From an uncultured Bacteroidales bacterium (GTDB lineage Bacteria > Bacteroidota > Bacteroidia > Bacteroidales > UBA932): DNA of 61,644 bases. Below are positions 759-58,684 of this stretch, in pieces. Position 1 is the first letter of the stretch; every line of letters starts with the position of its first letter. Both the position numbers and the translations under genes were made by a program. Location: NCBI GenBank assembly GCA_946415345.1, contig CAMKRY010000002.1:1-61644 (forward strand), given 5' to 3'. The notes below the pieces were generated by a model. It ran no database searches. It was given only the letters and a program-made list of their open reading frames with translations, and was not told the origin of the DNA.

Positions 759-1316
759 ATGAAACGGATTCTGCTCCATGCATGCTGCGCGCCGTGCTCC
801 GGCGCCATTGTGGAGGCCCTGCTGAAGGAGGGTGCCGATTTCGCCGTTTTCTTTTCTAATGACAATATCGTTCCCGAGCCGGAGTATGCCCTGCGGCTGC
901 GGGAGGTGCTTCGGTATGCCGCCGCGATGGGCGTGGAGGTCGTCGAGGACCGTTACGACCATGACGCCTGGCGCTGCAGCGTTGCGGGACTGGAGGATGA
1001 GCCCGAACGGGGCAGGCGCTGCGAAGCCTGCTTCCGCCACCGGCTGGACCGCGCCGCGGCGTATGCCCATGCCCATGGATTCGACACGCTGACGACGACC
1101 CTCGCCTCCTCGCGCTGGAAGGACCTGGACCAGGTCAACCGCGCCGGCGAAGCGGCCTGCGCCCCCTATGAGGATGTAGAATGGTGGCCCCGCAACTGGC
1201 GCAAGGGCGGCCTGCAGGAGCGCAGAAACGAAATCATCCGCGAGCAGCACTTCTATAATCAGCGCTACTGCGGATGTGAATTCTCAGAAGAGATTTCTCG
1301 ACTGCGCTCGAAATGA
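759..1316 (+). CDS. queH: Epoxyqueuosine reductase QueH (DUF208) with repeat-derived C-terminus ISRLRSK
   Basis: MKRILLHACCAPCSGAIVEAL (CC motif), CEACFRHRLDRAA, TTTLASSRWKD, QRYCGCEFS. Confidence 0.9.
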   Translation: MKRILLHACCAPCSGAIVEALLKEGADFAVFFSNDNIVPEPEYALRLREVLRYAAAMGVEVVEDRYDHDAWRCSVAGLEDEPERGRRCEACFRHRLDRAAAYAHAHGFDTLTTTLASSRWKDLDQVNRAGEAACAPYEDVEWWPRNWRKGGLQERRNEIIREQHFYNQRYCGCEFSEEISRLRSK

Positions 1317-1317
1317 C
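1292..1317 (+). repeat. 26-bp repeat element at queH 3' end
   Basis: GATTTCTCGACTGCGCTCGAAATGAC. Confidence 0.9.
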
Positions 1318-1323
1318 AAGGGA

Positions 1324-11031: not shown

Positions 11032-11121
11032 ACCTTTTCAGATTTTACCGATGCAAAGGTACGCCATTTTCGCGGCGCGGGCAATCGCTATTTGTTGGTA
11101 TTACGCGCGCCTGACACAATT

Positions 11122-11147
11122 GTCATTTCGAGCGCAGTCGAGAAATC
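11122..11147 (-). repeat. 26-bp repeat element at esterase 3' end
   Basis: GTCATTTCGAGCGCAGTCGAGAAATC, exact reverse complement of 1292-1317. Confidence 0.95.
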
Positions 11148-12853
11148 CTGAGCCCCGCCAGGCGCTCCCCTACCGGGCGCTTGTTGGGATAATGGACTTC
11201 GTAGGCCATGCCGAGGTCATAGGTGACGACCATCCCGAGACCGGGACGGCAGGTCACGAGCCTCTCCTGCGCCGCCCGGAATTCCGGCCAGAGGGGCCGC
11301 TCCATATAGGACAGCTGGGCATAATAGAACGGAACGTCCCCGAAGAAACCGCGCCAGGAATCAATCAGCAGCGGGAAGAGGCGCTCGAAAGCCTCGACGT
11401 TGTGGGCGTTGGACTCGCCCTGGTACCAGATGACGCCGGAGATGGGGAACTGCTCCATCGGGCGGATGGCCGCGTCGAAAAGATAGGCCGGCTGGTAGGG
11501 ATGGCGTCGGTTCGCGCCGGAAAGATTCTCCGCGGCCCGCTGGCGCACCCAGGGCATGACGAGTTCGTTGTTCCACCAGTTCGGCAGGATCTCCGGGAAA
11601 CCGTCCTCCAGCGTCGTGCGGTCGATCCAGGCCTCCACGGGAGAGCCGCCGATAGCATTGCAGATCAGGCCCACGGGGACGCCGAGGCTGTCACGCATCG
11701 TCTTGCCGAACCAATAACCGACCGCCGAGAAGACGGCTTCATTCTCCGCCGTCGCGCTCTCCCATTGCGCGTCCTGAAAATGCTGCAGCCGGTCCGTCGC
11801 GTCGAGGGCATCCGCCGGCCAGGCGACCGCGTCCGTGCGCCAGCGGCATTTGCTGTCGTAAAGGCGAAGGAGCGGGTCGGGCGTGCCTTCCGGGTCGCTG
11901 CACTGGCGGAGTTCGAACTCCATGTTGGACTGCCCCGAGCAGAGCCAGAGCTCGCCGATGGCGACGTTGTCAAAGCGCAGTTTGCGGCTGCGGGTCTCGA
12001 TGCGGAGGGTGGTGCTTTCCGTGGCTTTCATGGGGCCGATTTCCACGCTCCAGCGGCCGTCGGGGCCGGTTTTGGTCGTGTGCTTCTGGCAGCCGAGCCG
12101 GACGGAAACCTTCTCGCCGGCGTTGGCGGTGCCGCGGATCGTGAAGCGCTTGTCCCGCGGCAGGACCATGTTGTCGGAGTAATACGGCGAGACCCGCAGG
12201 CCGCCGAAGTCGCCGGTGATGGCGCCGTAGACCGTTTTCGCCAGGATGCCCGCGCCCTCGGCGTTGGGATGGACGGAGTCCGGCAGCAGGTCCGGCCGGG
12301 CAATCAGCGGCTCGTAGAAGTCGATCAGCTGGGCCCCGGTCTCCTGCGCGACGGTCTCGATGGCGTGCTGGATATGGCGGTGGTACGGAATATTGCCTGT
12401 CAGCAGGCGCGGATGGCCCGCCCCGAGCGGGGTCATGCGGGCGATATAGAACCGGGCGCCGGGATTGACCTCCCGCAGCGCCTCGACGAGCGCCTTGTAG
12501 TCCTTGACGAAGTCTGCGCCGCAGACCGGCCAGTCCCGCGGGTCGGTGTCGTTGATGCCGAGATGGATCACGACGATGTCCCCGGCGAACGCGAGCGCTG
12601 CCCGAAACTCCGCCTGCTCCATGTAGGGCCGGTGCCCCCGCCGCAGCAGCGTCGCCCCCGGCTTGCCGAAGTTCCCGACCTCGTACCCATCCCCCAGCAG
12701 CGCCTGCAGCTGCGCCGGATAGCTGTCATGCTCCCGGTCCGCAATCGTCATCCCATAGGTGATGCTGTCGCCCACGCAGGCGACTTTGATCTTTTGCGCG
12801 AAGGCGGAGACGGCCAGCAATGCGGCTAGCAGGAAAAGGAAAAAACGTTTCAT
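11123..12853 (-). CDS. SGNH/GDSL hydrolase plus sialate O-acetylesterase two-domain protein; C-terminus ISRLRSK repeat-derived
   Basis: VACVGDSITYGM, HLGINDTDPRDW (GDSL); WLCSGQSNMEF, WYQGESNAHNVE (sialate O-acetylesterase). Confidence 0.85.
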   Translation of the reverse strand: MKRFFLFLLAALLAVSAFAQKIKVACVGDSITYGMTIADREHDSYPAQLQALLGDGYEVGNFGKPGATLLRRGHRPYMEQAEFRAALAFAGDIVVIHLGINDTDPRDWPVCGADFVKDYKALVEALREVNPGARFYIARMTPLGAGHPRLLTGNIPYHRHIQHAIETVAQETGAQLIDFYEPLIARPDLLPDSVHPNAEGAGILAKTVYGAITGDFGGLRVSPYYSDNMVLPRDKRFTIRGTANAGEKVSVRLGCQKHTTKTGPDGRWSVEIGPMKATESTTLRIETRSRKLRFDNVAIGELWLCSGQSNMEFELRQCSDPEGTPDPLLRLYDSKCRWRTDAVAWPADALDATDRLQHFQDAQWESATAENEAVFSAVGYWFGKTMRDSLGVPVGLICNAIGGSPVEAWIDRTTLEDGFPEILPNWWNNELVMPWVRQRAAENLSGANRRHPYQPAYLFDAAIRPMEQFPISGVIWYQGESNAHNVEAFERLFPLLIDSWRGFFGDVPFYYAQLSYMERPLWPEFRAAQERLVTCRPGLGMVVTYDLGMAYEVHYPNKRPVGERLAGLRISRLRSK

Positions 12854-12900
12854 AGGCGCATCGTTTGTTTGTAAAGATAGTGATTCCCCGCGAGACCGCC

Positions 12901-12933
12901 AAAAAAAGGTGGCCGACCAAAAGGCCGGCCACC
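12901..12933 (-). terminator. Rho-independent terminator
   Basis: On minus strand GGTGGCCGGCCTTTTGGTCGGCCACC followed by TTTTTTT, just downstream of the 44-aa ORF. Confidence 0.8.
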
Positions 12934-12954
12934 CTGTATCAGGATTTGTAAGGA

Positions 12955-13089
12955 CTACCACGCGATCTCTCCACCGTCCTGGTAATTATCCGTGGTCCCT
13001 GCAGGCGCCACCGGATTGGTACCCAAAAAATTGACCTCAATCTGAATCCGGTCAACGCTTACCGTCGGTTGGAGATATTGTTGTTTCAT
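12955..13089 (-). CDS. 44-aa microprotein, family related to 14974..15114
   Basis: MKQQYLQPTVSVDRIQIEVNFLGTNPVAPAGTTDNYQDGGEIAW; consensus promoter upstream, terminator downstream; not in supplied ORF track. Confidence 0.65.
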   Translation of the reverse strand: MKQQYLQPTVSVDRIQIEVNFLGTNPVAPAGTTDNYQDGGEIAW

Positions 13090-16904: not shown

Positions 16905-16926
16905 GTTTGTGCTAGGAGCCTCGACA

Positions 16927-17003
16927 TGTCGCAGTTCAGATGCCGAAGTGTCGCAGGTCGGATGCCGAAGTGTCGCAGGTCGGATGCCGAAGTGTCGCAG
17001 GTA
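16927..17003. repeat. 22-bp tandem repeat, about 3.5 copies
   Basis: Unit TGTCGCAGGTCGGATGCCGAAG starting at 16927, 16949, 16971, 16993; copies 2 and 3 identical. Confidence 0.9.
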
Positions 17004-17144: not shown

Positions 17145-17239
17145 AACTGTCCTCAATGCTGCCAGGAAGTGGAGCATTAGGGACAAAAGAGGGCAAAAAC
17201 GGGCGCAATGCTGCCAAGATTTGGAGCATTAGGGACACT
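17145..17239. repeat. 95-bp dispersed structured repeat, copy A
   Basis: AACTGTCCTCAATGCTGCCAGGAAGTGGAGCATTAGGGACA...GGAGCATTAGGGACACT; near copy at 20858. Confidence 0.85.
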
Positions 17240-20857: not shown

Positions 20858-20951
20858 AACTGTCCTCAATGCTGCCAGGGAGTGGAGCATTGGGGACAAA
20901 AAGGGGTAAAAACGGGCGTAATGCGCCAAATTTTGGAGCATTAGGGACACT
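20858..20951. repeat. About 94-bp dispersed structured repeat, copy B
   Basis: AACTGTCCTCAATGCTGCCAGGGAGTGGAGCATTGGGGACA...TTTTGGAGCATTAGGGACACT; near copy at 17145. Confidence 0.85.
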
Positions 20952-21722: not shown

Positions 21723-22649
21723 TTAAAGGCAGGAAACAATAAGTTCGAGGAAGGCGGCGTCGAAGCGGTCGAAGGACTCTAATTCTTTACTGTCGATGTC
21801 GAGAACCGCCTTGACGGCGCCCTCGACCATCAACGGAACGACGATTTCGGAGCGGGAGAGAGCGCTGCAGGCGATGTGGCCGGGGAAGGCTTCGACATCG
21901 GGGACGACGACGGTCTCGCCGCGCTGCCAGGCCGTGCCGCAGACGCCTTTGCCATATTTGATGCGGAAACAGGCGGCCGGCCCCTGAAACGGGCCAAGGA
22001 CCAACTCCTCCCCTTCCACGCGGTAGAAGCCGACCCAGAAGAACTTCATCCGTTCATAGATCATCGCGGCGGTATTGGCCATGCGGGCGATGGGATCCGG
22101 CTCGTCGCCGAGCAGCAGGCGCAGGTCCTGATAGAGACGCAGATAGCGGAAAGCCTTCAGCGGCAAATGGCAATAGCCGTCGGGATTCTTGTCGAGATAA
22201 TCCTGATGATAATCCTCCGCCGGGTAGAAGTTGCGCAGCGGTTCCAGTTCTGTCGCCAGAGAGATTCCACGGACAAGCCGTGGAATGACGGTCGTCGCAA
22301 CCTCGGCAAAAAGCGACTCGAGCAGCGGCAACTCAGCGGGATCGGTGTAGTAGACGCCCGTGCGGTAGCGGGTACCGACGTCGTGGCCCTGCTGATTGAC
22401 GGAAAGCGGGTCGATCGACGCAAAAAACAGCCGCACAAGGGTCTCCAGCGAGACCCGGTCCGGGCGGTAGCGCACGCGGACGGTCTCGGCGAATCCCGTC
22501 GTATCGGTATATACCTGCTGATAGGTCGGATTCTCAATACTACCGTTGGCATAGCCCGGCGTAGCCTCAACGACGCCGTCCACGCCCTTGAAAAAATGCT
22601 CGACGCCCCAGAAACAGCCGCCGGCGAAATAGATTTCCTTGCTTGTCAT
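21723..22649 (-). CDS. msrA: MsrA fused to GAF-type free methionine-(R)-sulfoxide reductase; palindrome-derived insertion in MsrA domain
   Basis: YFAGGCFWGVEHFF, FYPAEDYHQDYL (MsrA); FFWVGFYRV, LGPFQGPAACFRIKYGKGVCGTAW, VPDVEAFPGHIACSALSRSEIVVPL (fRMsr). Confidence 0.9.
   Translation of the reverse strand: MTSKEIYFAGGCFWGVEHFFKGVDGVVEATPGYANGSIENPTYQQVYTDTTGFAETVRVRYRPDRVSLETLVRLFFASIDPLSVNQQGHDVGTRYRTGVYYTDPAELPLLESLFAEVATTVIPRLVRGISLATELEPLRNFYPAEDYHQDYLDKNPDGYCHLPLKAFRYLRLYQDLRLLLGDEPDPIARMANTAAMIYERMKFFWVGFYRVEGEELVLGPFQGPAACFRIKYGKGVCGTAWQRGETVVVPDVEAFPGHIACSALSRSEIVVPLMVEGAVKAVLDIDSKELESFDRFDAAFLELIVSCL
22263..22289. repeat. 27-bp palindromic element inside msrA
   Basis: GATTCCACGGACAAGCCGTGGAATGAC; perfect 9-bp arms ATTCCACGG/CCGTGGAAT. 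Confidence 0.9.
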
Positions 22650-22663
22650 ACTGCAAAGATAAC

Positions 22664-22690
22664 AAAAAAAGCGATCCTTTCGGATCGCTC
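22664..22690 (-). terminator. Rho-independent terminator downstream of tRNA-Leu
   Basis: Minus strand GAGCGATCC-gaaa-GGATCGC-TTTTTTT. Confidence 0.8.
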
Positions 22691-22693
22691 TCG

Positions 22694-22776
22694 TGCGGAC
22701 GGTGAGACTCGAACTCACACAGGCCAACGCCCACTACCCCCTCAAAGTAGCGTGTCTACCATTTCACCACGTCCGC
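22694..22776 (-). tRNA. tRNA-Leu(GAG)
   Basis: Minus strand GCGGACGTGGTGAAATGGTAGACACGCTACTTTGAGGGGGTAG...GAGTTCGAGTCTCACCGTCCGCA; long variable arm. Confidence 0.9.
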
Positions 22777-22940: not shown

Positions 22941-23495
22941 ATGGCTGTTAAGATTCGTTTACAGCGCCACGGTAAGAAGAATTTCGCATTCTTCCACATT
23001 GTTGTGGCCGACTCCCGCTCCAAGCGTGATGGTCGTTTCATCGAAGAAATCGGTACCTACAACCCGAACACGAACCCTGCTACGATTACCCTTAAGGGTG
23101 ACCGCGCTCTTGCATGGCTCAACGTCGGCGCCCAGCCGACCCTCGTGGTTCGTCGCCTCCTCTCCTATGAGGGCGTGCTTCTCCGCAAGCACCTCCAGGG
23201 CGGTGTCGAGAAGGGTGCCCTGACCCAGGAACAGGCCGACGCCAAGTTCGCCGCCTGGAAGGCTCAGCACGATGAGAAGGTCAACGCGAAGGTTTCGGGT
23301 CTGAAGAACGACGCGATCGCGAAGGCCAAGGAAGCCAAGGCCGCCGAGGCCAAGGTCAACGCCGCCCGCGCAGAGGCTATCGCCAAGCGCAAGGCTGAGG
23401 CCGAAGAGGCTGCCCGCAAGGCCGCCGAGGAAGCTGCCGCTTCCGAGGAGACCGCTGAAGAAGCTCCCGCTGCCGAAGAGGCTGCTGCCGAGTAA
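22941..23495 (+). CDS. rpsP: 30S ribosomal protein bS16 with Ala/Glu-rich C-terminal extension
   Basis: [44 protein letters not shown]. Confidence 0.97.
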
Positions 23496-23496
23496 G

Positions 23497-23997
23497 ATGC
23501 GGCTGATCGCCCGAATCCTGAAATCCAACGGAACCGACGGGGAGGTTCTCATGAGCTTCCTCGGCATGGATCCGGAAGAAATCAATCGCAAGGAACCGGT
23601 GTTCGTCGAATTCGACGGACTGCCGGTTCCCTTCTTTTTTGAATCCTTTACCCGCCGCGGTAACAATCGCGCCCTCGTACACCTGACAGGCGTCCGCAAC
23701 CTCGCTGACGCCGACGAGCTGGCTGGCCGCGACGTTTTCCTCGAAGCCTCCGACGAGGAGGACGAAGAAGACATCATCGGCTGGACGGTCCTGGACGACA
23801 ACGGCACCGTCGTCGGAAAGGTCCGCGACTATGAGGACATTCCTGGGAATTTGTGCATTTGGGTGGAAAGAGATTGCTCGACTTCGCTCGAAATGACAAA
23901 CAAGGAGGTCCTGCTGCCGCTGCACGACGATTTGATCCTGGAAGTCAATCCCGACACGCAGACCATCATGCTGGAAATCCCGGACGGGTTGCTATAA
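23497..23997 (+). CDS. rimM: Ribosome maturation factor RimM with repeat-derived internal insertion
   Basis: Follows rpsP by 1 nt; VHLTGVRNLADADELAGRDVFLE, KEVLLPLHDDLILEVNPDTQTIMLEIPDGLL. Confidence 0.93.
   Translation: MRLIARILKSNGTDGEVLMSFLGMDPEEINRKEPVFVEFDGLPVPFFFESFTRRGNNRALVHLTGVRNLADADELAGRDVFLEASDEEDEEDIIGWTVLDDNGTVVGKVRDYEDIPGNLCIWVERDCSTSLEMTNKEVLLPLHDDLILEVNPDTQTIMLEIPDGLL
23872..23897. repeat. 26-bp repeat element inside rimM
   Basis: GATTGCTCGACTTCGCTCGAAATGAC, 24/26 identical to 1292-1317. Confidence 0.9.
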
Positions 23998-41655: not shown

Positions 41656-41656
41656 A

Positions 41657-41681
41657 GATGCCCGATCAGGTCGGGCATGAC
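41657..41681. repeat. 25-bp palindromic element between convergent genes
   Basis: GATGCCCGATCAGGTCGGGCATGAC; identical to 45295-45319. Confidence 0.95.
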
Positions 41682-41687
41682 GAACGA

Positions 41688-45282: not shown

Positions 45283-45294
45283 TTTTCGGTCAAA

Positions 45295-45319
45295 GATGCC
45301 CGATCAGGTCGGGCATGAC
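45295..45319. repeat. 25-bp palindromic element, second copy
   Basis: GATGCCCGATCAGGTCGGGCATGAC. Confidence 0.95.
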
Positions 45320-45329
45320 GAATACTCGT

Positions 45330-58627: not shown

Positions 58628-58658
58628 TGGGGAAACAAGCTCGAAATGACAAAAGAGA

Positions 58659-58684
58659 CCCCCGGTCGAGGCCGGGGGTGACGT
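58659..58684. repeat. 26-bp palindromic element next to a 12-bp fragment of the 26-bp repeat (58641-58652)
   Basis: GACCCCCGGTCGAGGCCGGGGGTGAC; preceded by GCTCGAAATGAC. Confidence 0.85.

Follow-up and report, generated by a model that had tools for sequence, protein, structure and literature searches.

A TGTC-tagged palindromic repeat lies in frame within rimM of an uncultured Bacteroidales bacterium, and a repeat of another class occupies the site in a sister species

The rimM gene of an uncultured Bacteroidales bacterium carries, in its reading frame, a dispersed 28-nt palindromic repeat (class 1) that is absent from the congeneric RimM orthologs aligned with it, and a sister species holds a palindrome of a different class (class 2) at the same junction. 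The gene lies in a stretch of 61,644 nt, analysed as a whole and referred to here as the window (Table 1). We regard it as probable that the repeat is a bulged, TGTC-tagged variant of the CGTC-tagged REPs, that it was inserted into rimM in an ancestor, and that the classes turned over later.

Table 1. Repeats and their neighbouring or host genes in the window.
Feature	Position	Strand	Remarks
rimM	23497..23997	+	166 codons and stop; carries the embedded element; Pfam, NCBIfam, ORF
Class-1 element in rimM	23871..23898	-	Minus-strand sequence TGTCATTTCGAGCGAAGTCGAGCAATCT; plus strand reads DCSTSLEMT; ends set by flank consensus of 54 copies
rpsP (ribosomal protein S16)	22941..23495	+	Immediately upstream of rimM; Pfam, NCBIfam
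MsrA then GAF domain, single ORF	21723..22727	-	PMSR and GAF Pfam matches; carries class-2 element in frame
Class-2 element in msrA	22262..22290	-	CGTCATTCCACGGCTTGTCCGTGGAATCT; 9-bp stem; read as VIPRLVRGI
Class-1 copy	1291..1318	-	Its TGA ends the upstream ORF finishing at 1313
Class-1 copy	11121..11148	+	Its TGA, in minus-strand reading, ends ORF 11126-12985
CGTC-tagged palindrome	41656..41682	-	CGTCATGCCCGACCTGATCGGGCATCT
CGTC-tagged palindrome	45294..45320	-	Second, identical copy of CGTCATGCCCGACCTGATCGGGCATCT
CGTC-tagged palindrome	58656..58683	-	CGTCACCCCCGGCCTCGACCGGGGGTCT

The rimM product matches the RimM N domain (residues 4-85, E 3e-7) and PRC_RimM (residues 91-165, E 7.7e-11), both above the Pfam cut-off, and scores 61.5 bits against TIGR02273 of NCBIfam, slightly below the cut-off of 66.2; with the insert, the protein retains its conserved residues. 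A sequence-only reading of the window had described a 26-nt repeat read through rimM as DCSTSLEMT and matching an element at 1292 at 24 of 26 positions. Position, ORF and Pfam matches bear this out: the 26-mer (23872-23897) lies in frame, its translation stands between GNLCIWVER and NKEVLLPLHDDLI, and the copies at 1292 and 11122 each differ from it at 2 of 26 positions. The 26-mer is present as described; the complete element, however, is 28 nt long. Its constant part is longer by one base at either end (of the 54 copies, 53 have T before GTC and 52 have T after ATC), and the class-1 unit is therefore TGTCATTTCGAGCGNAGTCGAGAAATCT. The rimM copy has a single stem-breaking base, a T to G change at position 5.

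Class 1 is present in 24 copies with at most three mismatches in the draft genome of this species (1.34 Mb in 75 contigs, 56% complete), in agreement with the many copies anticipated, and the reversed-pattern control gave none. Two of the copies besides that in rimM fall in the window, where shuffles predict none. The sister genome has 43 copies, and class 1 was found in 139 of 400 congeneric genomes, with a maximum of 66; ten genomes from other families of the order had no copies. The insert is missing from more than 50 aligned congeneric RimM orthologs outside the sister species, the nearest of which have loops such as WVKRPSGEEVLLP, and a scan of the genome contigs returned three loci in all, one of them the sister. 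Thus rimM has what is typical of a protein-embedded element of the Rickettsia palindromic element (RPE) type, an in-frame insertion in a conserved gene that orthologs elsewhere lack. The residues are not shared by RimM orthologs outside the sister pair, as the sequence-only reading had expected of relatives without the repeat. It had also foreseen an insertion of about 9-12 aa; the insertion is there, but set against the nearest relatives that lack the element the net increase is about 7 aa, because loop length varies. This variation within the genus, exemplified by a long proline/alanine-rich loop at L185, would be compatible with an ordinary variable loop whose native residues resemble a repeat by chance, yet such an origin is scarcely credible, being refuted by the copy number (24 near-identical genomic copies against zero expected) and opposed by the conserved ends and tag. 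The longer RimM loops of genomes G135, G262 and G343 were considered as repeat copies and rejected, since they are not repeats.

The repeat is a variant of the CGTC-type REPs: its ends are palindromic, its stem shows compensatory changes and it bears a TGTC tag. It is probably related to RPE-4, RPE-6 and RPE-7 of Rickettsia. The unpaired TGTC tag is found in 53 of 54 copies, one end reads ATGAC, and A-T pairs occupy the first and second stem positions (2-23 and 3-22) in 24 of 25 class-1 variants. Plain energy folding gave no significant hairpin for class 1 (z about 0.5), and the stem was therefore assessed by covariation. At pairs 4-21 and 5-20, 11 double-changed cells were counted compared with 2.2 in shuffles, a signal that vanished on sliding. 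The stem so defined has 5+2 bp with a 2-nt bulge and a 6-nt loop, whereas published CGTC-tagged REPs have stems of 8-9 bp and loops of 4-5 nt, and for this reason class 1 is classed only as a CGTC-like variant. Class 2, CGTCATTCCACGGCTTGTCCGTGGAATCT, as in msrA here and in the sister's rimM, does resemble the CGTC-tagged REPs in its perfect 9-bp stem and 5-nt loop; it carries the CGTC tag in 30 of 30 copies and occurs 23 times in this genome and 83 times in the sister. Both classes have the many dispersed copies of CGTC-tagged REPs. In addition, the window holds palindrome classes beyond these two. In the msrA ORF, MsrA is joined to a GAF domain that resembles a free-methionine sulfoxide reductase; in the sister, the GAF part holds an in-frame class-2 element, and a long, unrelated insert is found at the MsrA site.

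Previous work placed RPE-4 and RPE-6 of R. conorii within the CGTC-tagged REP superfamily (Di Nocera et al. 2013, PMC3733652), so that the likeness to protein-embedded Rickettsia elements first guessed from the window is closer than supposed. The same study reports CGTC repeats from Bacteroidetes, describes intragenic copies, notes that CGTC REPs have no dedicated transposase, and describes two Xanthomonas species with different REPs at roughly one recB site (PMC3733652). Our elements share with families 1 to 4 of that superfamily the CGTC or TGTC tag, the AT at the stem base and the occurrence of dimers, as well as intragenic copies, including in DNA polymerase I (PMC3733652). According to the R. 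japonica genome paper, RPE groups have an ATGAC motif in common, and orthologous genes may carry RPEs of different groups (PMC3767692). The likeness to RPEs, judged from the CGTC-type tag and the terminal ATGAC as given in these papers, extends to short ATGAC palindromes lying in frame in conserved genes (DNA polymerase III alpha in Rickettsia, for example) and to different groups within one gene of related species. However, the RPE inserts in the genes listed are 84-192 nt long and the unit here is 28-29 nt; different RPE groups were described as close together but not at one position, whereas here at least one junction coincides exactly; and the host is a member of the Bacteroidales instead of an alphaproteobacterium.

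The sister species, G115, matches rumen bin RUG11383. Its RimM is 84% identical and reads WVERDSTDKPWNDGKDKPWNDGKKDAQEKAHEVLLP, and its rimM DNA has the identical left junction AAAGAGATT, followed by the class-2 palindrome AGATTCCACGGACAAGCCGTGGAATGACG, which bears a CGTC tag of its own and is partially duplicated in tandem. Therefore, the rimM site is occupied in both species, by different classes. Sorting the sites by eye on pairwise alignments of this one sister pair, both genomes being drafts, we scored a class difference at eight of 15 co-occupied orthologous sites (L003, L006, L013, L020, L022, L087, L093 and L111); seven sites of this genome besides rimM show it at the same junction. 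The same class was scored at the other seven (L004, L008, L010, L017, L021, L097 and L113), and L005 was scored as the same class with an expanded loop. Four sites (L009, L012, L015 and L024) lack an element in the sister and two are ambiguous (L011 and L085). Comparison from the sister side adds class differences in rsmE and in a GH2 gene. Neither comparison yielded a clean empty site with near-identical flanks usable for junction mapping. Two further features were seen. At L013 and L005, the element's internal ATG (GAAATGACA) coincides with the probable start of the following gene or closely precedes it, and might serve as a start codon. A miaA-like gene of the sister (L088) has a composite of several palindromes of about 100 nt that is missing from this genome, and L097 holds a related composite.

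These comparisons suggest that a small non-autonomous palindromic element entered codons of the rimM hairpin loop, most likely in the common ancestor of the two species, and that class 1 came to occupy the site in one lineage and class 2, with its own tag, in the other. A length of 28 nt alone shifts the frame; therefore extra changes would have accompanied or followed the insertion. In the exchange, a new element was probably inserted next to the old one and one of the two was then lost. Mixed arrays agree with this add-and-lose route: holB has class 1 together with a long-loop class in this genome and only the latter in the sister, and polA, a gltD-like gene and rsmE are also multi-element sites. 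The same dimers and mixed arrays, which are common, together with the partial tandem duplication in the sister's rimM, could alternatively mean that at least two classes already stood side by side in the ancestor and that each lineage kept another, with no insertion after the split. We hold this to be possible but distinctly less probable, as at most exchanged sites each species shows a single class, with no visible trace of the other.

A preferred target that independently received an element in each lineage, without an ancestral one, would fit the tolerance of the RimM loop for length changes and the non-random neighbours of both classes, a pyrimidine at -2 in most copies and a T just beyond the opposite end. 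We think this unlikely: the same junction and orientation recur at many unrelated genes, the same class is found at seven of 15 co-occupied sites, as common descent predicts, and no longer target motif was seen in the flanks of either class. To ancestral insertion followed by class turnover one may add a more speculative proposal, which we would back only with considerable doubt, namely that occupied loops of conserved proteins act as docking places at which an enzyme working in trans exchanges entire tagged hairpins again and again. If that were true, the surface loops of a set of housekeeping proteins would be rewritten at intervals.

How the element persists in rimM may be explained by its open frame, its short polar peptide and its location in a loop where the PRC barrel makes a turn. 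AlphaFold modelling of 26 RimM orthologs gave a mean pLDDT of 85.8 and a pTM of 0.51. The insert residues 128-134 have pLDDT below 50 and fall between strands 120-124 and 137-141 of the PRC domain, so the insert is placed by the model at a beta-hairpin turn, consistent with a tolerated turn, and is predicted to be translated as a floppy loop of RimM. A PDB sequence search with RimM gave no match at E 0.1.

Elements lie in frame in 11 genes besides rimM. The twelve class-1 copies within genes of this genome, rimM included, read as VISSEVEKS in nine cases and as DFSTSLEMT in three; all twelve use two of the five open frames and never the other three, for which we calculate a chance of (2/5)^12 = 1.7e-5. 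These polar peptides are presumably the ones tolerated. The sixth frame supplies the TGA stop at the copies at 1291 and 11121. Hosts confirmed by Pfam are an iron-sulphur protein, HolB, a DUF5106 lipoprotein, UDP-glucose dehydrogenase, a polyA-polymerase-type protein, altronate dehydratase, Lnt, an outer membrane protein, RsmE (with a class-2 element) and DNA polymerase I, which has two elements, one of class 1 at residue 307 and one of class 2 at residue 473. Insertions frequently fall between domains, as in two further hosts with Pfam support: regions 2 and 4 flank the element of an ECF sigma factor, and in a GltD-like oxidoreductase it separates the domains.

Since RPE and CGTC-REP precedents exist (PMC3733652, PMC3767692), elements of this kind are already known; both protein embedding and class differences between orthologs have been reported for Rickettsia. 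As far as the open literature searched shows, the host phylum, the bulged TGTC class, the class difference at an exact junction and the frame rule are new. Protein-embedded palindromes are thereby extended from Rickettsia to the Bacteroidota, in a species-rich Bacteroidales genus, and the question of their entry into conserved genes and persistence there is therefore no longer tied to bacteria with an obligate intracellular life. The hundreds of congeneric genomes make it possible to measure the rates at which elements are gained, exchanged and lost at single sites, as well as the rule of frame choice.

The elements would be mobilised in trans by some enzyme. Y1_Tnp (PF01797) matches occur in 296 of the 400 congeneric genomes (74%), with three genes in this genome and two in the sister, and by our count in about 55 of the approximately 62 genomes with at least six class-1 copies. 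In two other species, the distance between class-1 copies and one Y1_Tnp gene is about 0.5 kb; none of the copies in this genome is near such a gene. No firm link to the Y1 transposase as mobiliser can be drawn, because the genome with 66 copies (G407) is not among the matches. Like the GTAG-tagged REPs with their RAYT transposases (REPtrons), our elements are dispersed small palindromes that at times lie in genes or give a stop codon. Unlike in REPtrons, the tag is another one, and no consistent pair of elements was found flanking the RAYT-like genes. The RAYT-like genes L168, L173 and L178 have about 300 codons and an HxH-type motif.

The window has other repeats as well: a 22-nt unit, CGAAGTGTCGCAGGTCGGATGC, stands in three tandem copies at 16922-17002, and two 67-nt direct repeats, 91% alike, lie 3.7 kb apart at 17145-17211 and 20858-20924.
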